A DNA stretch of 64,000 nucleotides, taken from the NCBI GenBank assembly GCA_015689705.1, contig WVSN01000002.1, positions 248,001 through 312,000 on the forward strand, read 5' to 3'. Source of the stretch: Rhodobacterales bacterium HKCCE3408. GTDB taxonomy: Bacteria; Pseudomonadota; Alphaproteobacteria; Rhodobacterales; Rhodobacteraceae. Made by a program: the position numbers and the translations under genes. Under the pieces are notes generated by a model. It saw only the letters and a list, made by a program, of their open reading frames with translations, was not told the origin of the DNA and did no database searches. This document shows, piece by piece, positions 19,997-29,389 of the stretch (positions are counted from its first letter, which is position 1; each line of letters begins with the position of its first letter).

Positions 19997-20023
19997 GAGG
20001 TCGGTCCTTCGGGTCGTCATGCG

Positions 20024-20048
20024 AAAACGCCGGGCGTCTGGCCCGGCG
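20024..20048 (-). terminator. Terminator-like hairpin in the leuS leader
   Basis: On the minus strand, CGCCGGGC and GCCCGGCG pair perfectly around five bases and are followed by TTTT. It sits after the DUF3576 gene and only 27 bases before the leuS start, leaving little room for a separate promoter. Confidence 0.75.
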
Positions 20049-20077
20049 CTGTGTCTAGTTTGCAGAGGCGCGCGGGT

Positions 20078-20587
20078 CTAGAGGTCGCCGTCGCGGATGC
20101 GAAGCTGGCGGGCGCGGGTGAGGATGGCATCCTCGATCTGGCGCGCGGTTTCCCGTCCGACCGGGCCGCCGCGGCTGGCCACAGCCACGCGCAGCGCACG
20201 TGCGTCGAGCGCGGGGTCGGTGATGTAGACCGTGGCGCGGTAGGCGGTGCCGCCGCCCGGCGGTACGCCGAAGCCGTAGACGATCACGCCCGAGAACGGG
20301 TCGGCCGCTTCGATCGGCATGAAGTCGAGGATCTCGAGCGTGGCGTTCCAGAGATAGCGGTTCACCTCGACGGTGGTGTTCGGGTCATCGACGTTCAGGA
20401 ACAGATCCCAGATCGATTCGCGCTGCGGATCCTGCAGGTTGCCGGAGTCGACGAGCTCGTCCCGGCGCTGCTGGTCCGAGACGCCGCCGAAGATGTTGCC
20501 GATCCGTCCGCCGCAGGCACTCAGCGTGCTGAGCGCCACTACGCCGATGGCAAGCCGCATGTATGTCCGTGCTGCCATGCCCCTCAT
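20078..20587 (-). CDS. DUF3576 lipoprotein
   Basis: 169-residue predicted lipoprotein of the DUF3576 family. The signal peptide MRLAIGVVALSTLSAC has a lipobox with Cys25 counting from the first ATG; ATGs at 20578 and 20560 are alternatives and do not change the mature protein. The mature part contains SIWDLFLNVDDPN and VNRYLWNATLEIL, typical of this Rhodobacterales/Rhizobiales family. It lies upstream of leuS on the same strand with a terminator-like stem between. Function unknown. Confidence 0.82.
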   Translation of the reverse strand: MRGMAARTYMRLAIGVVALSTLSACGGRIGNIFGGVSDQQRRDELVDSGNLQDPQRESIWDLFLNVDDPNTTVEVNRYLWNATLEILDFMPIEAADPFSGVIVYGFGVPPGGGTAYRATVYITDPALDARALRVAVASRGGPVGRETARQIEDAILTRARQLRIRDGDL

Positions 20588-20932
20588 GACCCCGTTCTTC
20601 CTCGCCTGACCCTTCGTAGCGGAGGCTCATATGCCCGGCAAGGGGCCTGAGGGATTCGGGGAATCGCCGCGCGGACCGTCCCGCGGATGCGCGACAGGAC
20701 CACCGGAAGGGTGTCCGGCATGGTCGGAACGGGGTCGTGGAAACCCTGATCCGGCTTAGGAAAATAAGCCCGGCGACCACACTGTGACATGTCTGCACCA
20801 CGGGGTGTCCAAGATCGGCGGGCCGGTCCGGGCTTCCTTGCAATCGAGGGCCTGACGAGAGAGAGAGGGGCATACTCAATTCGGACTTCCCGTCTTGAGG
20901 TGCACCTTCAAATGTTCACGAGGGAAAGAAAC
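20588..20932. other. Non-coding region upstream of porin 1
   Basis: 345 bases between the divergent DUF3576 and porin genes with no convincing gene. I see small dyads: CCGCG/CGCGG around 20669, GGCTTA-ggaaaa-TAAGCC at 20753-20770 and the perfect palindrome AGGTGCACCT at 20898-20907. The last lies close to the porin start and could be an operator. No clear -35/-10 pair could be chosen. Confidence 0.5.
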
Positions 20933-21031
20933 ATGAAAAAGGTTCTCTTCGCCACGACGGCACTCGTTGCCTCGGCTGGCGTCGCAAGTGCCCAGGGTGT
21001 CGCGCTGTCGGGCTCGGCCGAAATGGGTATC
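20918..21031 (+). repeat. Direct repeat, left copy (porin 1 5' end)
   Basis: 114 bases identical to 26055-26168 except at 20987 and 20988. Identity begins abruptly 15 bases before the ATG, at the ribosome binding site, and runs through the signal peptide. Spacing between copies is 5137 bases. Confidence 0.9.
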
Positions 21032-21913
21032 ATCGGTGGTGACCGTGAGATCAACGGCAACCCCACGGACGTCATCCAGTTCTGGAACGATGTCGACATC
21101 GCGTTCACCCTGTCCGGTGAAACCGACAACGGTCTGACCTTCGGCGCCAACGTCGACCTCGACGAGGCCGGCAACCTGGGTGCCGAAGAAGACAACCAGG
21201 GTACTTCGGTCTTCATCTCGGGCGACTGGGGCACGCTGACCCTGGGCGACACCGATGGTGCGCTCGACCGCGTCATGCAGGAAGCCAACACTGCTGGCGA
21301 CCCGGGTTCGATCGCTGACGACGAGACGTCGCACGCTGGTTACCTCGGCTCCTTTGGCGACGGCACCTATGACAACCAGGTTCTCCGCTACGAGTACTCG
21401 TTCGGCGACTTCCTGTTCGCGATCTCGCACGAGCAGGGTGCCTTCCCGACCGGTGAAGTTGTCATCGGCGCTCCGGACGGCTCTTCCGCCATCGGTATCC
21501 GTTACTCGACCATGGTGTCGGGCGTCGACCTGACCGCTGGTCTCGGCTACCAGGTGACCAACTTCGCGGCTGGCGATCAGACGATCGTCGGTGTGTCGGT
21601 TCTGGCTGAGTTCGCGGCTGGCTTCTCGGCCGCTATCGGCTACAGCGACTGGTCTGACGTTGGCGGCACTGCCGGTAACGACGACAGCCACGCCTACATC
21701 GGCCTCGGCTACGCCACCGGCCCGTTCTCGATCCACGCCAACTACGGCGAGTTCGACTCGGGTGACTCGGGTTACGGCCTGGCCGCTGGCTACGACCTCG
21801 GTGGTGGCGCATCGCTGCTGTTCGGTTACGGCCACAGCGAAGGCCCAGCTAACCCGGTTGACGCGTCCACCTCGACCAACACCTGGTCGTTCGGCGTCGC
21901 GATGTCGTTCTGA
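20933..21913 (+). CDS. Outer-membrane porin, copy 1
   Basis: Rhodobacter-type general porin, 326 residues. Signal peptide MKKVLFATTALVASAGVASA precedes the mature N-terminus QGVALSGSAEMGI. Alternating beta-strand pattern, the acidic constriction-loop style segments (DLDEAGNLGAEEDNQ) and a C-terminal Phe after SFGVAMS are typical of trimeric 16-strand porins. Codon use is strongly biased, as in highly expressed genes. The ATG at 20933 follows GAGGGA. A near-identical 5' end occurs in porin 2 at 26070, with an integrated island between them. It is followed by a strong terminator. Confidence 0.93.
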   Translation: MKKVLFATTALVASAGVASAQGVALSGSAEMGIIGGDREINGNPTDVIQFWNDVDIAFTLSGETDNGLTFGANVDLDEAGNLGAEEDNQGTSVFISGDWGTLTLGDTDGALDRVMQEANTAGDPGSIADDETSHAGYLGSFGDGTYDNQVLRYEYSFGDFLFAISHEQGAFPTGEVVIGAPDGSSAIGIRYSTMVSGVDLTAGLGYQVTNFAAGDQTIVGVSVLAEFAAGFSAAIGYSDWSDVGGTAGNDDSHAYIGLGYATGPFSIHANYGEFDSGDSGYGLAAGYDLGGGASLLFGYGHSEGPANPVDASTSTNTWSFGVAMSF

Positions 21914-21937
21914 TCGACTAGTGGTCAGAGAAGAATA

Positions 21938-21975
21938 TGACGGGGGCGGGCTTCGGCTCGCCCTTCGTCTTTTTT
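21938..21975 (+). terminator. Rho-independent terminator of porin 1
   Basis: GGGCGGGC-TTCG-GCTCGCCC (21944-21963) gives an eight-pair stem with a stable TTCG loop, followed by a run of T residues from 21970. Confidence 0.88.
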
Positions 21976-22143
21976 GCGATGCCATTTTGTCCAAACGGCA
22001 CGTCTGTTGGAGGCTTGCTTCCTTTTTCTGCATCTTTCGAGCGCTCCCACCGCAGTTGCTGATGATGGGATTCTATCAACACCGATATGTCGGGATGAGC
22101 CAAGAGCTGTCAGTACAGAAAACTGCGTACTCTATATACCAAG

Positions 22144-22175
22144 AGGAGGAGGATACAGATCCTCCCCCCCCTCCA
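22144..22175 (-). terminator. Hairpin after the polymerase-like gene
   Basis: AGGAGGAT/ATCCTCC pair with a four-base loop (about 22148-22165) and extend with further G-C pairs. On the minus strand this follows the stop of the polymerase-like gene by 22 bases. The T tract is weak, so efficiency is uncertain. Confidence 0.5.
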
Positions 22176-22196
22176 GTGACCCATCATGAGTGAGTA

Positions 22197-23669
22197 CTAG
22201 AAGTCTCCCTCGTCGTACTCCTCAAGGACCGGGTAGTCTTCCTCCTCGGCATCCAACCCGTCATCGCCCTGACTATGAGTCGCAGTTATGACTTCGAGCA
22301 ACTCTTCTAGCCGACTATCCAAGTGGTACTCGGCGTCGATCGGACAGGGTAGAGGCTCGATCATCCGCGGATCCTCGCCTGAGACTGAGACATCCAGCCA
22401 GGGCGCATGTGGTCCCAAATACTCCCTTAGGGTTTCCTGAAGGATCTTCAACACGCGCTCTTCATCCGACTGGCGGACAAGAACACTGTCGTGGACTGGG
22501 AAGGCTGGGATGCACGACCGGCAAAGGCGCTCCAGGACGTCCATGAGGATCTCCGCCTCGATGAACTGCAGCTCCAGCGTCAGCGACGGAGAGCCGTCAA
22601 GGAACGGAAACGCCTCGATGATGCCAGGCATCAAGTCACCGACGCGCCTCCCATCAAGATCGTACTTATCCTTGAAGGCCACACCGTCGTCCTGTTTGGG
22701 GAATGCCGTCAGCCATCCGCCCGGCTTGTAGATCGAGCACTGCACAAGGGTTTTCGCAGCTCGGCGAAGTTGCCTCGACTTTACCCACTCGATGTCCTCG
22801 TACGGATCTCGGCCGAGGCGATCGGGGTGTCGGTAGAGAGCCGCCAAAATGGAAAGGTGGGACGCCTTCAGGTCGATCTCACAGACGGGCTCTCCGTCGA
22901 TTGTGCACGCCAGGCGGTCTCGTTCGGGCCTCGTCACGTATTCACCGTAGAGCCTCCCGCCATGGCTGAGGTCTTCGGTAAAGATCCGAGTGAGTTTCGT
23001 ATCCTGCCGACGCCCCCCTTCGTCTTCCAAGGCATATTGACCGAGGAAGTCGTTGAGCTGGCTCACCCGAGTTTCTTGTTCTCTAACGTTTGACGCGGGG
23101 AACCTATCGAGCGGCAGTCTCCGCTTTCCGTACATTTTGGTTTGGCTCGAGGACCTGCGTTCTCGAACTTCGATAGAGCGTGGCTTGTACCGGTGGAAAC
23201 TCAGTTCTCCTTGCGCGCTGTTGAGACGCGCACGAAGGCCCGGCGAACACACATAGACGGAGGCTTGACCCGGACGGTGCTTGATGAGCTGTCGCAAGAA
23301 CCCTCGATCGCGGAGCGCGTGGGTGACCGAACTCATTGCGTCGTAGCCACAAGGACTGCCGACCCACCTTTGCCGTGACATCAGTATGCCCAAGCGTTTC
23401 TTTCGGCTTGCCGCTCGAAGGACTGATGCGACTGCGCAGACATGCTTCTCGACCTTAGATGACTTCGCTTTGCCGAGCGAACTGAGATCGCTGTATAAGT
23501 CGATGTCTTCCAGCAGTTTCAGTTCTTGAAGGAGCTGTATGGTGAGGTCGTGGGTCGCCTTGTTGCCTGGCATGTGTTCCCCGGTGACGAATATGTCGGC
23601 GCGCAACGAAGGCTGCTTGCGCTTGTTGGGCGAGACAACGACGTATGGGCTGCCACTATGGTCCAGCAT
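22197..23669 (-). CDS. Family-A polymerase-like palm protein of unknown function
   Basis: 490-residue protein I do not recognise as a named family, but its C-terminal half carries the ordered motifs of family-A (Pol I/T7-type) polymerases. These are GGRLYGE (237-243, like the GRLSS motif), EIDLKASHL (264-272, motif A, Asp266), RRAAKTLVQCSIY (302-314, motif B or O-helix, Arg302, Lys306, Tyr314), LQFIEAEIL (367-375, like QGTAADI) and PVHDSVL (391-397, motif C, Asp394). The Phe762 and Glu710 positions of E. coli Pol I are Gln310 and His271. No 3'-5' exonuclease domain is seen. Residues about 95-150 look like a winged helix, and the C-terminal tail is acidic. It sits in a lower-GC island beside two recombinases. 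DNA versus RNA polymerase, or an inactive relative, cannot be told. Confidence 0.7.
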   Translation of the reverse strand: MLDHSGSPYVVVSPNKRKQPSLRADIFVTGEHMPGNKATHDLTIQLLQELKLLEDIDLYSDLSSLGKAKSSKVEKHVCAVASVLRAASRKKRLGILMSRQRWVGSPCGYDAMSSVTHALRDRGFLRQLIKHRPGQASVYVCSPGLRARLNSAQGELSFHRYKPRSIEVRERRSSSQTKMYGKRRLPLDRFPASNVREQETRVSQLNDFLGQYALEDEGGRRQDTKLTRIFTEDLSHGGRLYGEYVTRPERDRLACTIDGEPVCEIDLKASHLSILAALYRHPDRLGRDPYEDIEWVKSRQLRRAAKTLVQCSIYKPGGWLTAFPKQDDGVAFKDKYDLDGRRVGDLMPGIIEAFPFLDGSPSLTLELQFIEAEILMDVLERLCRSCIPAFPVHDSVLVRQSDEERVLKILQETLREYLGPHAPWLDVSVSGEDPRMIEPLPCPIDAEYHLDSRLEELLEVITATHSQGDDGLDAEEEDYPVLEEYDEGDF

Positions 23670-24037
23670 GAGGGTCCTCGATCTGTTGGTGGGTTTCCGA
23701 GTCGAGAGCGCTGTCTGATCGACAGTTCGAGCCGCTCAATTCTCCTCAGTTACGTCAACTTATTGGTGGAATAGCTTCGAAAGAGGCGTAAGATACTGTA
23801 AAAAAATAAAAAACAGGGGATAGCATATGTGGAGCCGTTCTCCGGAGGCCTCCTGTGCTTCTCGGCTGGCGTGATCCGAGTTGCAGTCAACCGAGCAACT
23901 CTCATCGTCTCATTGAGGCCTGGTCTTATGGGACGTCCCACAGTTGACACCCGCGTGTCTCACATGAGTTGACATGAGACCTGTGAGACGCTAGGTCGGT
24001 CATGTCTAAGACTCTAGTGAGACGAAGGGGTAGCGTG
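23670..24037. other. Non-coding region between polymerase-like and recombinase genes
   Basis: 368 bases between divergent genes. It holds the dyad CTGTC-tgatc-GACAG at 23711-23725, an exceptional A/T tract at 23799-23813 flanked by CTGT and ACAG, the palindrome GGGACGTCCC at 23930-23939, and a cluster of short repeats over the recombinase promoter. The A/T tract could be a DNA unwinding element or a promoter upstream element. Confidence 0.5.
23942..24030 (+). promoter_or_regulatory. Promoter and operator-like repeat cluster of the serine recombinase
   Basis: TTGACA at 23969-23974 and TAGGTC at 23992-23997 are 17 bases apart, a good -35 with a weak -10. AGTTGACA occurs twice (23942 and 23967). 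GTCTCAC at 23957 is the inverse of GTGAGAC at 23983, which recurs at 24017. AAGGGG at 24025-24030 is seven bases before the ATG at 24038. Repeats overlapping the promoter suggest autoregulation or a recombination site. Confidence 0.55.
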
Positions 24038-24595
24038 ATGTTGGTAGGGTATGCGCGGACGTCCACAATGGATCAGACCGCTGGGTTGGAAGGACAGCTC
24101 AGAGATCTAGCAGCCGCTGGCTGCGAGAAGGTCTTCCAGGAACAAGTGTCCTCGGTAGACAGGGGATCTCGGGCTGAGCTTGATGCGGCTCTCGAGTACG
24201 TCCGTCAGGGCGACCGGCTGGTGGTCACCAAGCTGGATCGCCTGGCTCGATCGGTGAGCCACTTGGTAGAGATCAAGGACCGTCTACAAGCGCGTGACGC
24301 GCATCTGATGGTCCTGGACATGAACCTAGATACCTCGACGGCAACGGGAGCGCTGCTCCTCAACCTGGTCGGCAGCATCGCGGAGTTCGAGCGTCAGATC
24401 ATGCTGGAGAGACAACGTGAGGGGATCGCCAAGGCCAAGGCTGCTGGCAAGTACAAGGGTCGTGCGCCGACTGCCAGGGCAAAGGCCGACGATGTGCTCG
24501 AACTTAGAGCTCAAGGGGTCGGTCCAACGGAGATCGCCCAGCGCGTCGGCATTGGGCGCGCGTCTGTCTACCGCATCCTCGCGGAAGCTCAGTAG
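24038..24595 (+). CDS. Serine recombinase (resolvase/invertase family)
   Basis: 185-residue small serine recombinase. The catalytic Ser9 lies in GYARTST (4-10), with the downstream TKLDRLARS (64-72) contributing Arg68 and Arg71, and a long helix GSIAEFERQIMLERQREGI leading to a C-terminal helix-turn-helix that recognises DNA (about 140-185). I chose the ATG at 24038 because it has a good ribosome site and puts Ser9 at the family position; the ATG at 24002 would coincide with the predicted transcription start. It is the middle gene of the inter-porin island and may resolve dimers or invert DNA. Confidence 0.92.
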   Translation: MLVGYARTSTMDQTAGLEGQLRDLAAAGCEKVFQEQVSSVDRGSRAELDAALEYVRQGDRLVVTKLDRLARSVSHLVEIKDRLQARDAHLMVLDMNLDTSTATGALLLNLVGSIAEFERQIMLERQREGIAKAKAAGKYKGRAPTARAKADDVLELRAQGVGPTEIAQRVGIGRASVYRILAEAQ

Positions 24596-24985
24596 GACCA
24601 AGGACATCTGGACACAGCCTCTCTGAGCCTTCATAGGCGCCACCTCGTCGGACCCATGAGGATCGATGACCGAGTTGGGGGGCGCCGGGGGAGATCGGCA
24701 TCCTTCGCATTGAGATACCTCTACGAAAATCCCCAGCAGTTATTCGGTCTCAGTCCCTTTCGCACTTGGATCCCGCTCCTCGGAGGGCGTCGCTCTTGAA
24801 TCGTGCACATTAGTCGTGTTCGTAGGTGACACGGCGACCAATGCTGGGCGGACCGTGCTGACAGCGGCATGGGTGGCTCGCTTCACCTAGTCATTCTCGG
24901 TCCACGCGAAGATGGAGCGGATCTAACCATCTGGCGCGCGGAAGATCGATCCCATCGAACTCAAGCAGCATCAGCTGCGGCACAG
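24596..24985. other. Non-coding region between the two recombinase genes
   Basis: 390 bases separating the 3' ends of the convergent recombinase and integrase genes. No convincing coding frame, terminator or tRNA is visible. GGCGCC occurs twice around 24637-24690. It may hold an unrecognised RNA or a recombination site, or be decayed sequence. Confidence 0.5.
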
Positions 24986-25933
24986 TCAAGTGATCTTGCT
25001 ATCAACGATCCGGCCAACGATTTCGGTGCGTTGGTGAAGACGGTTCGGGAGCAGGTGAGCGTATCTTTGTGTCATGGCTGGAGAGCAGTGGCCAAGAAGT
25101 TCCTGCACTTCGTATAAGGTGACGCCGTTGTTGATCAGAAGACTGGCATAGGTGTGTCTCAGGTCGTGGATGCGAACATCTGCAAGGCCAGCCATGTCCC
25201 TCGCCTTGTAGTAGGCGATATGAAAGCTCCCGTAGCATGTCATCGTCCGTGGATTTGTGAAGACGAAGGAGGGAGGATCGACGGGCAGCTCAAGGCTCCG
25301 AGCGCGGTCTCTGGTTTCTTCCAGCACGGCCATTGCAGCGGCGCTGAGCATGATCCGGCGAGAGCGGTCGTTCTTGCTCCGAGGGACACGCCATACGGCT
25401 GCACCGGTGTCGATGTCTCGCCACCTAGCCGTACGGGCCTCGCCCTTGCGGGCGCCCGTCAGCAACAAGAAGCGAATGAAGAGCTGAAGAAACGGGTGGT
25501 TGATTTCGCCGCAAGCGACGAGCAGCCGCTGGATTTCCTCACTCGACATGAAACGCTGACGGTAGTCGCCGGTTGGTAACCTGCGCAGATATCGCGGGGC
25601 TCGCACGCCATCTGGGATGACCTCCCAGTCCCGACTCGTACGCAGAAGCCGGTTCAACATGTCGATGTGTTTGTTGATGGTGGTATTCTCCAGACCGAGC
25701 TTCATCTGGCGACGCAGCCACGCGTTCAGTGCCACTGGTGTGAGTTGGGACCATGCCAAAGGACCAAGTGTGTGGCGAAGGTGCTTCTCGTAGGTCAGCA
25801 GTGTGTGTCGTGGCCGCCGCGAGACCACTTCGAAGTGCGGATAGTAGTGGAGATCGAAGAACGCGTTCAGCGTTTCGGTAAGCTCTGTTGGCGCCAGGCT
25901 CTGCTCGAACCGCTCTGAGAAAGGATCAGTCAT
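24986..25933 (-). CDS. Tyrosine recombinase (phage-type integrase)
   Basis: Site-specific integrase of 315 residues starting at the ATG at 25933. The frame continues upstream across the porin 2 repeat, but those residues are a shadow of the porin. The catalytic set is visible: Arg162 (TGARKGE), a lysine near 187, His256-x-x-Arg259 (IHDLRHTYAS), His282 (LLGHC) and the nucleophile Tyr291 (TQRYAHL). The N-terminal SAM-like DNA-binding domain contains TYEKHLRHTLGPLAWSQL. It points away from porin 2, whose 5' repeat begins about 120 bases beyond its start, a typical position for an integrase next to an att site. Confidence 0.93.
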   Translation of the reverse strand: MTDPFSERFEQSLAPTELTETLNAFFDLHYYPHFEVVSRRPRHTLLTYEKHLRHTLGPLAWSQLTPVALNAWLRRQMKLGLENTTINKHIDMLNRLLRTSRDWEVIPDGVRAPRYLRRLPTGDYRQRFMSSEEIQRLLVACGEINHPFLQLFIRFLLLTGARKGEARTARWRDIDTGAAVWRVPRSKNDRSRRIMLSAAAMAVLEETRDRARSLELPVDPPSFVFTNPRTMTCYGSFHIAYYKARDMAGLADVRIHDLRHTYASLLINNGVTLYEVQELLGHCSPAMTQRYAHLLPNRLHQRTEIVGRIVDSKIT

Positions 25934-26054
25934 GCTGAGCCTCTGTCCGAGACGGACAAGCAAAGTCCTCGGCTCGACCTCTCTTTCTTGAGGCTTTCCA
26001 GCCTCGACAGGTTCCGCCGCATGGATGCCGGGAGCTTCCCCCTCGGAGCCGACA
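25934..26054. other. Short region between integrase and porin 2
   Basis: Contains the hairpin GAGGCT-TTCC-AGCCTC (25990-26005). The sequence has no similarity to the leader of porin 1 beyond TCTTGAGG until the shared repeat begins at 26055. It must supply the promoter of porin 2 if that gene is expressed, but I cannot pick one. Confidence 0.45.
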
Positions 26055-26168
26055 ACGAGGGAAAGAAACATGAAAAAGGTTCTCTTCGCCACGACGGCAC
26101 TCGTTGCCTCGGCTGGCGTCGCAGCTGCCCAGGGTGTCGCGCTGTCGGGCTCGGCCGAAATGGGTATC
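26055..26168 (+). repeat. Direct repeat, right copy (porin 2 5' end)
   Basis: Matches 20918-21031 with two adjacent mismatches; 69 bases are perfect, then two differ, then 43 are perfect. Candidate attachment core, or the product of gene conversion. Confidence 0.9.
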
Positions 26169-27074
26169 GTTGGTGGCGACCGCACTCTGGATGGCACCGC
26201 AACTGACGTCGTTCAGTTCTGGAACGATGTCGACATCGCGTTCACCCTGTCGGGCGAAAGCGATAACGGCCTGACCTTCGGCGCCAACGTCGACCTCGAC
26301 GAAGCCGCCAACCTGGGCGGCGAAGCCGACAACCAGGGCACGTCGGTCTTCATCTCGGGTGACTGGGGTACGCTGACCCTGGGCGACACCGACGGTGCGC
26401 TCGACCGCGTTATGCAGGAAGCCAACACTGCTGGCGACCCGGGCTCGATCGCGGATGACGAGACGACCCACGCCGGCTACCTCGGCTCTTTCGGTGACGG
26501 TGGCGGCGGCGACAACCAGGTCCTCCGCTACGAGTACTCGTTCGGCGACTTCCTGTTCGCGATCTCGCACGAGCAGGGCGCACAGCTCGCCAGCGGCGTG
26601 GTGGTCACGGGCGATCCGGACGGTTCGTCCGCCATCGGTATCCGTTACTCGACGATGGTGTCGAACGTCGACCTGACCGTGGGTCTCGGCTATCAGATGA
26701 CTGACTTCAACGGGGTTGGTCTCGGAACCACCGATCAGACGATCGTTGGTGTGTCGGTCCTGGCCGAGTTCGCGGCTGGCTTCTCGGCCGTCGTGGGCTA
26801 CAGCGACTGGTCGGATGTTGCCGGTGTCGCCGGTGTCGACGACAGCCATGCCTACATCGGCCTCGGTTACGCCACCGGCCCGTTCTCGATCCACGCCAAC
26901 TACGGCGAGTTCGACTCGGGTAACTCGGGCTACGGCCTGGCGGCTGCCTACGATCTCGGCGGCGGCGCATCGCTGAACCTCGGCTACGGCCACAGCGACG
27001 GCGCGGGTATCAACCCGGTCGACCTTTCGGACTCGGCCAGCTTCTGGTCGTTCGGCGTCGCGATGTCGTTCTGA
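26070..27074 (+). CDS. Outer-membrane porin, copy 2
   Basis: 334-residue porin closely related to copy 1 (by eye about three quarters identical in protein, nearly identical in the first 40 residues). Signal peptide MKKVLFATTALVASAGVAAA, mature QGVALSGSAEMGI. Differences concentrate in likely surface loops, for example GGGGDNQ and the LASGVVVTGDPDG segment, and in the last strands before the terminal Phe. Such loop divergence is expected if loops face phages or antibodies. Followed by its own terminator and then yggS. Its leader lies in the island. Confidence 0.93.
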   Translation: MKKVLFATTALVASAGVAAAQGVALSGSAEMGIVGGDRTLDGTATDVVQFWNDVDIAFTLSGESDNGLTFGANVDLDEAANLGGEADNQGTSVFISGDWGTLTLGDTDGALDRVMQEANTAGDPGSIADDETTHAGYLGSFGDGGGGDNQVLRYEYSFGDFLFAISHEQGAQLASGVVVTGDPDGSSAIGIRYSTMVSNVDLTVGLGYQMTDFNGVGLGTTDQTIVGVSVLAEFAAGFSAVVGYSDWSDVAGVAGVDDSHAYIGLGYATGPFSIHANYGEFDSGNSGYGLAAAYDLGGGASLNLGYGHSDGAGINPVDLSDSASFWSFGVAMSF

Positions 27075-27096
27075 TCGACAGCGAAAGCTATCAGGG

Positions 27097-27128
27097 AAGA
27101 GTGGGCCGTTGCGCCCGCTCTTTTCTTT
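27097..27128 (+). terminator. Rho-independent terminator of porin 2
   Basis: AAGAGTGGGC and GCCCGCTCTT (one G-T pair) form the stem around a six-base loop, followed by TTCTTTT. It precedes the yggS start by about 17 bases. Confidence 0.85.
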
Positions 27129-27144
27129 TGCGATAGCGCGATCC

Positions 27145-27798
27145 ATGTCGCTTCAGGACGTTCAGGACCGCATCGCAAAGGCCGAGGCCGCCGCCGGGCG
27201 CGCGCCGGGATCCGTACGGCTGGTCGCTGTTTCCAAGGTCCAGCCGGCCGAAAGGGTCGAGGCGGTCCTGAAGGCCGGTCACCGGCTGTTCGGTGAGAAC
27301 CGCGTTCAGGAAGCGCAGGATCGCTGGCCGCCGTTCCGCGAACAGTTCGACGGGATCGAGCTGGTCCTGATCGGCCCCCTCCAGACCAACAAGGTGAAGC
27401 CTGCCGTCGAGCTCTTCGACGGTATCCATTCCGTCGATCGCCCGAAGCTGGCCCGCAAGCTCGCCGATCTCGCGCAGGAGCGCGGGGCGTGCCCGGAGCT
27501 TATGATCCAGGTGAACACGGGCGCCGAGCCGCAGAAGGCGGGCATTCTGCCTGACGAGGCCGACGCCTTCATTGCCGAGGTCCGGTCCATGGATCTGCCG
27601 CTGACGGGTCTCATGTGCATCCCGCCGGTCGAGGAAACCCCGTCACTCCATTTCGCGCTTCTGGCGAAGATCGCCGAACAGAACGGCCTCGCCGAACTGT
27701 CGATGGGCATGAGCGGCGACTTCGAACAGGCCATCGCGTTTGGTGCCACGCAGGTTCGGGTCGGGTCCGCGGTTTTCGGCGAACGCGCCTACGACTAG
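27145..27798 (+). CDS. yggS: PLP homeostasis protein (YggS/PLPBP)
   Basis: Pyridoxal-phosphate-binding regulator of vitamin B6 and amino acid pools, 217 residues from the ATG at 27145. PLP-binding Lys31 lies in VAVSKVQP, and HRLFGENRVQEA (46-57), IGPLQTNKVK and the C-terminal LSMGMSGDFEQAIAFGATQV are the family signatures. The upstream ATG at 27109 would start inside the porin 2 terminator. It converges with the L,D-transpeptidase-like gene, overlapping by four bases. Confidence 0.95.
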   Translation: MSLQDVQDRIAKAEAAAGRAPGSVRLVAVSKVQPAERVEAVLKAGHRLFGENRVQEAQDRWPPFREQFDGIELVLIGPLQTNKVKPAVELFDGIHSVDRPKLARKLADLAQERGACPELMIQVNTGAEPQKAGILPDEADAFIAEVRSMDLPLTGLMCIPPVEETPSLHFALLAKIAEQNGLAELSMGMSGDFEQAIAFGATQVRVGSAVFGERAYD

Positions 27799-28301
27799 GC
27801 AAGCCCCTCCGGCACGATGAGCCGGGCGCCGTGGCGCATTCCCTGCACCAGCCACAACAGATCCGGAAACGCCATCGCAACGCAGCCGGCAGTCGGCCGC
27901 CCCGGCGCACGCCAGGTATGGATGAAGATTGCCGATCCCGCGCCGCGCCTGGCCCGTGGCCAGTTCCAGTCGGTCAGAATAATCAGATCGTACATGCGGT
28001 CGGCGCGGGCCAGGCGTTCATGGCTGAACGGATGCGGGGCGCGAACCATCAGGTTGTAGTCTTCGTCCGCCGGATCGTCGGACCAGAGATCGCCCGGCCC
28101 GATCGGGACGGCCCAGTCGACCGGCTTTGCCATGCGGTCGGGTCGATAGAGGCAGCCGACGATGCCATGGATGCCAGCAGGCGTTGCGCCGTCGCCCTCC
28201 CGCTTGGTCGTCGTCACGCCGCCTCGGCCGATAGTGCAGGGGATCACGCGGCCGCGCACGCGCAGGCCCATGCGCGTCAGCACCATGTCGGCGGGAGTCA
28301 C
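27795..28301 (-). CDS. L,D-transpeptidase catalytic-domain (YkuD) protein
   Basis: 168-residue YkuD-fold protein. The catalytic stretch FIHTWRAPGRPTAGCVAM has His128 and the nucleophile Cys140. No signal peptide is obvious at the N-terminus, so it may be membrane-free or exported by other means. The family crosslinks peptidoglycan or anchors lipoproteins. The start overlaps the ribA stop (ATGA), suggesting it is the distal gene of a ribA operon. Short stand-alone forms like this are often of unknown substrate. Confidence 0.88.
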   Translation of the reverse strand: MTPADMVLTRMGLRVRGRVIPCTIGRGGVTTTKREGDGATPAGIHGIVGCLYRPDRMAKPVDWAVPIGPGDLWSDDPADEDYNLMVRAPHPFSHERLARADRMYDLIILTDWNWPRARRGAGSAIFIHTWRAPGRPTAGCVAMAFPDLLWLVQGMRHGARLIVPEGLA

Positions 28302-29389
28302 AGCAGGTGTCCCGACTTCGATTTCTTCGTGGCGAGGTAATGCGCGTTCTGTCGGGTCGTCCCGGTCACCAGCGGCACGCGTTCGGCCACCGCGATTCCC
28401 TCGGCTTCCATCATCTCGACCTTGCGGGGGTTGTTCGTCATCAGGCGCACGGCACCCACGCCCATCTGCCGCAGAAGCGCCGCGCCGAGGCGGAAATCCC
28501 GCTCGTCATCCTCGAAACCGAGCCGGTGGTTCGCCTCGACCGTGTCAAAGCCCTGATCCTGCAGCGCATAGGCCCGCATCTTGTTGGCGAGCCCGATCCC
28601 GCGTCCCTCCTGATTGAGATACAGCAGGATGCCCGCGCCCTCCTCGCCCATCCGCGCCAGCGCGGTATGGAGCTGAGGGCCGCAATCGCATTTGAGCGAG
28701 CCGAGCACGTCGCCGGTGAAACAGGCGGAATGGAGCCGGGTGAGGACGGGCTTTTCCCGGTCGGGCCGGCCGATCTCGATGGCGTAATGTTCGATCCCGC
28801 CGTTCTCGGGCCGGAAGACGCGAAGCCGCCCGGCCTCGGAGGCCGCCATGGGAAGGCGCGCAGCGGAGACGGGAGACAGGCGGTGCGACAGGGCGAGGTC
28901 GGCGGCAGCGGTTTCGGCCGACAGAAGGGTCAGCCCGGTCTCGGACGCGAACCTCGCCGGATCGTCGAGCGGCAGGCACAGCGCGGCGGGCAGAAGTTCG
29001 GCCGATTTCACCAGCCGGACGGCCAGTCGATGGAGATCGGCGTCGCCGTCGCGCAGGGTGGTCAGCGGCCCCTTCATCGGGGCCATCAGGTCGCGCGCGG
29101 GGTCGGCGACGCAGTGGATCCAGCCGACATCGGCGCTTTCGGGCAGAACCACACGGGCGATGTCGCCGTCATAGGCCCGCGCTTTCAGCGTCTCCGCCCG
29201 CCAGGTGGTGATCGCGACAACGGGCGCACCGGGCAGGGCGCGGATCGCGGCCAGACGCTCGGCCGTCAGCACTTCGGCCGCGACGGCCAGAAGGCCGCCC
29301 CCGGCACCGGCGATGACCACGCCAAGGCCAAGCCGAAGGTCACCACGGGCGCGGGCGACCAGGTCGGCAGAGCTTGGGGCGAGGGTCAT
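28298..29389 (-). CDS. ribA: GTP cyclohydrolase II
   Basis: First step of riboflavin synthesis, opening GTP to the diaminopyrimidine. The C-terminal ~190 residues hold the zinc ligands C223-x10-C234-x-C236 (CFTGDVLGSLKCDC), the GTP-binding LNQEGRGIGLANKMRAYALQ and TNNPRKVEMME. The N-terminal ~165 residues are an extra domain seen in alphaproteobacterial homologues and do not show a complete DHBP-synthase motif set, so a bifunctional role is not supported. The ATG at 29389 sets 363 residues. Divergent from the regulator gene. Confidence 0.93.
   Translation of the reverse strand: MTLAPSSADLVARARGDLRLGLGVVIAGAGGGLLAVAAEVLTAERLAAIRALPGAPVVAITTWRAETLKARAYDGDIARVVLPESADVGWIHCVADPARDLMAPMKGPLTTLRDGDADLHRLAVRLVKSAELLPAALCLPLDDPARFASETGLTLLSAETAAADLALSHRLSPVSAARLPMAASEAGRLRVFRPENGGIEHYAIEIGRPDREKPVLTRLHSACFTGDVLGSLKCDCGPQLHTALARMGEEGAGILLYLNQEGRGIGLANKMRAYALQDQGFDTVEANHRLGFEDDERDFRLGAALLRQMGVGAVRLMTNNPRKVEMMEAEGIAVAERVPLVTGTTRQNAHYLATKKSKSGHLL

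Follow-up and report, generated by a model that had tools for sequence, protein, structure and literature searches.

A predicted minimal family-A polymerase of the divPolA2 and TV-Pol kind beside recombinase genes in Rhodobacterales bacterium HKCCE3408

Introduction

Could a protein of 490 residues, in which no Pfam polymerase domain is detected, carry the core of a family-A polymerase, and for which replicon would it work? The question is raised by an open reading frame (ORF) of Rhodobacterales bacterium HKCCE3408, which lies in a stretch of 64,000 nucleotides (contig WVSN01000002.1, positions 248,001 to 312,000; hereafter the window). A check of the ORFs in the window places it at 22197-23669. 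The original prediction, made from the letters alone, had given the same coordinates for an unrecognised protein with the full motif set of family-A polymerases, possibly of a lineage distinct from both DNA and RNA polymerases; that the frame lies on the minus strand is added here.

Small polymerases of this family have been described before. The transposon-virus polymerases (TV-Pol) were introduced by Iyer, Abhiman and Aravind in 2008 as minimal family-A polymerases encoded beside resolvases and integrases, and such palm-reduced enzymes were proposed to stand near the ancestral form from which Pol I and the T7-type RNA polymerases descend (PMC2579912). A polymerase of Caudoviricetes, divPolA2, was described in 2024 from barbaviruses and Vibrio phages in the available text of PMC11348598. 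Here, we report that the ORF is a new member of this known, little-studied polymerase kind and not a new lineage. The protein is probably a minimal family-A polymerase of the divPolA2/TV-Pol kind that would serve a small integrating element by synthesising its DNA and possibly the primers as well. We argue from homology within PHROG 4756, from a predicted fold and a register of the Pol I type, from catalytic residues that are conserved, and from the recombinase genes linked to it.

A polymerase core in register with Pol I

The five motif strings that had drawn attention to the protein are present at the residues originally given, namely GGRLYGE (237-243), EIDLKASHL (264-272, with Asp266), RRAAKTLVQCSIY (302-314), LQFIEAEIL (367-375) and PVHDSVL (391-397). 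Pfam gave a single chance-level match for the ORF, ACT_7 (E 0.23, with the limit at E 10), and searches of the Protein Data Bank (PDB) with the single sequence and with a profile returned chance-level matches only. A profile alignment with E. coli PolA bears out the predicted order and spacing of the Pol I motifs: D266, H271, R302-R303 and K306 stand at D705, E710, R754-R755 and K758, respectively, and Q310, Y314, Q368 and D394 at F762, Y766, Q849 and D882.

Conservation was counted in an alignment of 57 non-redundant homologues, among the rows in which the residue is present. The core residues are near-invariant, that is, R239 (55/55), R252 (56/56), D266 (55/56, with one Asn), D288 and Y290 (57/57 each), R302 (56/57), K306 (57/57), H393 (55/56) and D394 (56/56), while position 371 is Glu in 42 rows and Asp in 15. 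The residue that follows the His-Asp pair of motif C is Ser in 28 of 56 rows, Ala in 13, Cys in 13 and Gly in 2, and never Glu. Positions 271, 310 and 314 vary across the family. The matches to Pol I that had been pointed out at R302/R303, K306 and Y314 are therefore all present in this ORF, but R303 and Y314 are not conserved among its relatives; similarly, the departure from E710 and F762 (His271 and Gln310) is found here as described, at positions that are variable in the family as a whole.

A hidden Markov model (HMM) of the family core was aligned singly with 317 ORFs, each of at least 150 residues. The phage protein AUR84708, a published divPolA2, ranked first (113), gp030 of Microcystis phage Ma-LMM01 second (31.1) and E. 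coli PolA third (27.0), followed by an ORF that is no known polymerase (23.3); taken as absolute values, these scores from single sequences are low (probability 20% for gp030 and 5% for PolA), and their weight lies in the rank and in the register, which for PolA covers motifs A, B, the QGTAAD helix and C.

An AlphaFold2 model built from 19 aligned sequences has a mean predicted local distance difference test score (pLDDT) of 83, with blocks between residues 191 and 440 at 88-98. In the model, D266 is located near the end of strand 260-267, H393-D394 in the turn between strands 389-392 and 395-399, and Arg239 on the hairpin formed by strands 227-231 and 237-241. The lack of a palm-fold match had been named beforehand as one of two outcomes that would refute the assignment, and the fold was found. 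Family-A DNA polymerases make up all 50 matches listed by Foldseek against the PDB (best E 5.6e-6), and VIA aligns the Plasmodium apicoplast polymerase with Z 14.2 and 3.8 Å over 233 residues; Klenow is also among the fold matches (Foldseek/VIA). Because of the near-invariant residues, the Pol I register and this fold match, the motif set is more than a chance likeness. In addition, substitutions relative to the closest relative (L025; 228 codons, 63% identical residues) amount to 0.28, 0.22 and 0.58 at codon positions 1, 2 and 3, a pattern that reads as under constraint at the protein level.

The N-terminal domain is common to the members of the polymerase family. Modelled alone it is of mixed alpha/beta type with pLDDT 91, and the matches listed by Foldseek include MarR-, ArsR- and CodY-type regulators, although they are weak (best E 0.04; VIA Z below 6) and chains of Alba and of ribosomal proteins score equally. 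The domain may thus be called, weakly, winged-helix-like, in keeping with the winged-helix N-terminus predicted originally. No nuclease domain was found in the ORF by Pfam or in the model, which consists of the N-terminal domain and the polymerase core, as the prediction of a protein without exonuclease domain had it. The modelled architecture would then be a palm with a short fingers insert, preceded by the winged-helix-like domain and with no nuclease domain found.

One family in bacteria and phages

The sole PHROG match of the ORF is phrog_4756 (function unknown; E 2e-26), which is also matched by 18/18 aligned relatives. AUR84708 matches phrog_4756 over nearly its whole length (E 1.8e-91) and is retrieved by the family profile as well (1.5e-22). 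Since both match phrog_4756, the ORF and divPolA2 belong to one family. The label 'unrecognised' consequently no longer applies, and we rejected a distinct or new lineage on this match together with the core features and gene neighbours of TV-Pol. It should be noted that at a loose limit of E 10, hits with phrog_4756 also occur in three of the 14 control genomes, namely those of B. subtilis, Bacteroides ihuae and Lactococcus lactis. By structure, the best 11 matches in BFVD have E 2e-20 to 4e-15 at 12-18% identity, and include a protein of Aeromonas phage 2L372X (E 6e-20) and a 'DNA polymerase' of Rheinheimera phage Barba31A (E 2e-16).

Homologues were found in 32 of 50,697 phage records (Vibrio 24, Aeromonas 7, Pseudomonas 1), with 20-39% identity over the matched parts, and in 2 of 72,556 plasmid records, to which two more plasmids are added when other family members serve as queries; a scan of IMG/VR viral contigs found no relatives. 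With the profile at E 1e-8 or better, the family occurs in 40/295 genomes of the same bacterial family and in 16/299 genomes of the phylum, among them the source genome and four others of its bacterial family. In the source genome it is single-copy (search at E 0.001). Twenty loci came from a scan of named genome contigs. Fifteen of them are titled Rhodobacteraceae or genera that we take, for some of them, to belong there; the remaining five are from SAR116, Bradyrhizobium, an unplaced alphaproteobacterium, and metagenome-assembled genomes of Flavobacteriaceae and Pseudodesulfovibrio. As for the alignments, A1 holds 20 proteins minus L015 and L020, A5 holds 20 loci minus the fragments L039 and L041, and the N-terminal alignment A6 leaves out the A5 fragments L025 and L031.

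A quick IQ-TREE tree of 66 rows joins the ORF to four sequences from the same bacterial family (SH-aLRT 100). Six phage rows cluster together (93), within a larger fork of 27 rows in which bacterial and plasmid members are also present (94). Because the phage branches are long, we claim no direction of transfer.

Recombinases beside the polymerase genes

Neighbourhoods of at most 8 kb on each side were inspected for 40 polymerase genes, 15 of them reaching contig ends and 25 uncut. An integrase-type ORF is present in 26, a serine resolvase in 13 and either in 30; for the uncut neighbourhoods the figures are 21, 9 and 23, respectively, and for 20 control stretches of the same genome set they are 0 for integrase-type ORFs and 3 for serine resolvases. 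A distance of at most 1 kb separates the resolvase from the polymerase in 9/40 loci, and likewise the integrase from the polymerase in 9/40. For example, in L094, L093 and L087 the integrase and polymerase frames are at most 22 bp apart or overlap on one strand. Together with the resolvase and the tyrosine recombinase that adjoin the present ORF, these counts agree with the mobile-element context put forward in the original prediction. A D5_N helicase is encoded in 4/34 family genomes, and only G117 has one on the same short contig as the polymerase gene.

Another gene recurs in these neighbourhoods. Six of the 40 loci (L077, L078, L080, L081, L083 and L085) share a large gene, homologous between them, no more than 6 kb away from the polymerase; that of L085, the one scanned, is a type III restriction-modification methyltransferase directly downstream of the polymerase. 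In the Thioclava plasmid member (L168), an annotated site-specific methyltransferase is found downstream of the polymerase. Such methyltransferase genes are possible candidate cargo.

What the enzyme would do

Most likely the protein is an element-borne primase-polymerase, whose activity, priming and role in replication are inferred. It would synthesise DNA, possibly from primers of its own making, for a small integrating element, with the N-terminal domain seating it on the element's DNA. Metal ions would be held by the pair of aspartates, and Arg302 and Lys306 would have the nucleotide-handling role of the matching residues in Pol I. The copy might then be resolved or moved by the resolvase, either alone or together with the tyrosine recombinase next to it. 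For unwinding, the element would depend on the host, as the source genome yielded no D5-type helicase.

Several observations weigh against this reading. Foldseek gives low TM-scores (0.24-0.31 over the query) with root-mean-square deviations (rmsd) that are mostly large, and the two-helix thumb of TV-Pol is not evident in the model, where a single long helix (192-209) immediately precedes the hairpin. HMM searches of Ma-LMM01 gave nothing significant, so that a direct match to a named TV-Pol is missing; only the HMM-HMM comparison picks gp030, weakly, and with Asn at the place of the motif C Asp. Direct homology of the ORF to a named TV-Pol is accordingly only suggestive. A D5_N helicase, the one type sought (DUF927-type helicases were not), was not found in the source genome. 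The recombinase HMMs had been refined by iteration on the member loci, so that the comparison favours these loci over the control stretches. Moreover, the tyrosine recombinase of this locus is possibly associated with a porin gene, and the limits of the element are putative.

What else could the protein be? An RNA polymerase, or an RNA-making primase derived from the same fold, is an unlikely reading that has several points in its favour. Motif C is H-D-S/A/C/G and never H-D-E, and the positions of E710 and Y766 of Pol I are variable; since motif C lacks Glu and the sugar-gate positions vary, RNA or mixed synthesis is conceivable for the present protein. Among 18 relatives, hits to RNA polymerase profiles were seen twice for Pfam RNA_pol (best E 0.2) and once for phrog_414 'RNA polymerase' (3.9e-4), and the fold matches of VIA include the RNA polymerase of yeast mitochondria (Z 13.7, with rmsd 12.8 over 356 residues). 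The same possibility was raised for divPolA2 in the available part of PMC11348598. However, T7 RNA polymerase ranks only 12th of the 317 ORFs and has no motif but C in register (T7 DNA polymerase is 22nd, with motifs B and C), and family-A DNA polymerases account for the 50 Foldseek matches listed and for most VIA rows.

We likewise consider it improbable that the protein is a repair or accessory DNA polymerase without a role in element replication. The divPolA2 phages also carry a regular polymerase, and repair is suggested by the authors in the accessible text (PMC11348598); besides, the neighbours scanned here are recombinases, porins and one chromosomal gene, with no D5-type helicase found in the genome. 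The patchy distribution and the recombinase linkage, however, point to mobile elements rather than to host upkeep. A catalytically dead relative, serving as a DNA-binding or structural protein, had been considered in the original prediction. Precedents exist: five Pol-like proteins of Bacillota, consisting of the RRM core only, lack one or both key aspartates according to the available text of PMC10061031, and Asn takes the motif C position in the gp030 alignment. In the present protein Asp266, Asp394, Lys306, Arg302 and Arg239 are all intact. Because the catalytic residues are near-invariant in the 57 rows and the differences from the closest relative fall mostly at third codon positions, a dead enzyme is very improbable. 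The reading as a DNA-making polymerase of a mobile element is preferred.

The locus between two porin genes

The features of the locus are listed in Table 1. The polymerase gene is flanked by two porin genes, with the recombinase genes adjoining, and probably lies on a small mobile element. The GC content of the inter-porin segment is 0.55-0.61 in 800-base windows, compared with 0.62-0.69 in the flanks. The porin copies are in tandem, both open over the whole porin length, and ~86% identical as DNA (20918-21918 versus 26055-27079). At the equivalent locus of one congener compared, there is a single porin, without polymerase, resolvase or recombinase. No Rfam match was found at E 0.5 over 20000-28500, and a scan found no sigma-70-like promoter, for which the chance expectation is 0.9. 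The inverted repeat in the divergent region between polymerase and resolvase is a possible resolvase or operator site. Two AGTTGACA repeats occur beside it in the same intergenic region (23942-23989).

Table 1. Features of the polymerase locus, in positions of the window.
Feature	Position	Strand	Basis
Predicted minimal family-A polymerase gene, 490 residues, divPolA2/PHROG 4756 kind, TV-Pol-like	22197..23669	-	Profile, fold, conservation, register
Palm/fingers core, residues 183-433	22371..23123	-	Fold-match range, conservation, register
Core residues: hairpin Arg239; Asp266 of motif A; Asp288; Arg302-x3-Lys306 of the fingers; His393-Asp394 of motif C	within 22371..23123	-	
N-terminal winged-helix-like domain, residues 20-178	23136..23612	-	Domain-alone model pLDDT 91; weak fold matches
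8-bp inverted repeat GTCTCACA/TGTGAGAC with 17-bp spacer, polymerase/resolvase divergent region	23957..23989	.	
Gamma-delta (Tn3-type) serine resolvase, divergent from the polymerase	24002..24595	+	PF00239 E 6e-39, HTH_7
Tyrosine recombinase (integrase); open frame continues upstream to 26197	24986..25933	-	PF00589 E 3e-30
Low-GC inter-porin segment with polymerase, resolvase and recombinase	21914..26069	.	GC contrast; missing from one congener
Porin copy 1 (Porin_4), flanking	20933..21913	+	
Porin copy 2 (Porin_4), flanking	26070..27074	+	~86% DNA identity to copy 1

The tyrosine recombinase may go with the adjacent porin and not with the polymerase. Its lineage occurs in 15/295 genomes, and in 13 of 16 loci (L148-L163, including that of the window) a Porin_4 homologue is at most 1.5 kb away from it, in several orientations. 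Porin-matching places number only 2-4 per genome in the seven genomes checked, and some of them are pieces of one gene. A tblastn search of nine wider recombinase-porin stretches (L175-L183) detected neither a polymerase nor a resolvase nor another porin in the vicinity. The porin duplication is only a possible footprint of the polymerase element, because related recombinases adjoin single porins where no polymerase was found. The porin-linked recombinase may use porin genes as its site, or may switch them; porins are common phage receptors. We found no account in the literature of this recombinase lineage next to porin genes.

Comparison with known systems

E. coli Pol I shares with the ORF the register of motifs A, B and C and the palm fold. 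It is about twice as long and has exonuclease domains. The two also differ in motif C, which is HDE there and HDS here, and in E710 and F762, which have no match; Y766 is matched, by a residue that is not conserved in the family. A 490-residue enzyme with motif C HDS and without E710/F762 of Pol I is a test case for the divergence of DNA polymerases, RNA polymerases and primases.

A biochemical precedent is given by CCPol of SCCmec, which earlier authors placed in TV-Pol. It extends primers, and PMC7581432 presents it as a close relative of bacterial Pol I; with its partner MP it primes de novo (PMC7581432, PMC10061031). Like CCPol and the PolA-SSB primases, as far as these texts present them, the ORF encodes a predicted family-A polymerase, probably on a recombinase-borne mobile element; it appears to differ in its partner genes, and no D5-type helicase was found in the source genome (DUF927-type helicases were not sought). 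The PHROG 4756 clade is far more diverged than CCPol, with no Pfam polymerase match, and is present in 40/295 genomes of one bacterial family. As a tentative and rather unlikely proposal, the PHROG 4756 polymerases, those of bacterial elements together with the divPolA2 of large phages, might be one self-priming family-A branch with relaxed sugar choice, in which a single minimal polypeptide suffices and its N-terminal winged helix replaces the SSB partner of CCPol; if true, the branch would be an uncharacterised type of element-borne primase-polymerase or small RNA polymerase.

The core of TV-Pol comprises a conserved Arg in a beta-hairpin, two Asp of the palm, an Asp and an RxxxK motif in the fingers, and a thumb of two antiparallel helices, without a nuclease. 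A subset with an N-terminal domain (TV-PolN) is linked to gamma-delta resolvases, lambda-type integrases or transposases, and several Rhodobacterales are listed among its members (PMC2579912). In the ORF, Arg239 in its hairpin corresponds to the conserved pre-palm Arg, D266 and D394 to the two Asp of the RRM-like palm, and R302/K306 to RxxxK, with D288 as the fingers Asp in our own reading of the paper. The lack of a detectable nuclease domain and the adjoining resolvase and integrase, one or the other of which is present at 30/40 family loci, are further likenesses. Apart from the thumb and the D5 helicase mentioned above, the ORF may differ in its N-terminal domain, which is modelled here as mixed alpha/beta versus the all-helical prediction (PMC2579912). 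The gene of gp030 (L166:3746-5266), annotated as a hypothetical protein, adjoins IS605/IS200 transposase genes, and gp030 is a candidate distant relative with an altered motif C. A setting of the IS605/IS200 type is given for TV-Pol genes, and the Ma-LMM01 gene is not named in the main text (PMC2579912).

A close comparison is with divPolA2, which the ORF fits on every feature tested, that is, the profile, the catalytic palm, the N-terminal globular domain and the absence of a 3'-5' exonuclease, taking divPolA2 as it appears in the available text of PMC11348598. Both belong to the same PHROG, are of similar length (430 and 490 residues, respectively) and show an active-looking palm and no recognisable thumb. 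The difference is that the ORF is located on a bacterial chromosome beside recombinases, and that it shares only 12-18% identity with the eleven best phage fold matches. The term TV-Pol appears once in the accessible part of PMC11348598, in its background, and beyond that paper and its preprint we found none treating divPolA2 together with these bacterial-element polymerases. The link between divPolA2 and bacterial elements is apparently new, being unstated in the related papers found, as far as their available text goes. The PHROG 4756 clade joins two literatures, that of TV-Pol in bacterial elements and that of divPolA2 in phages.
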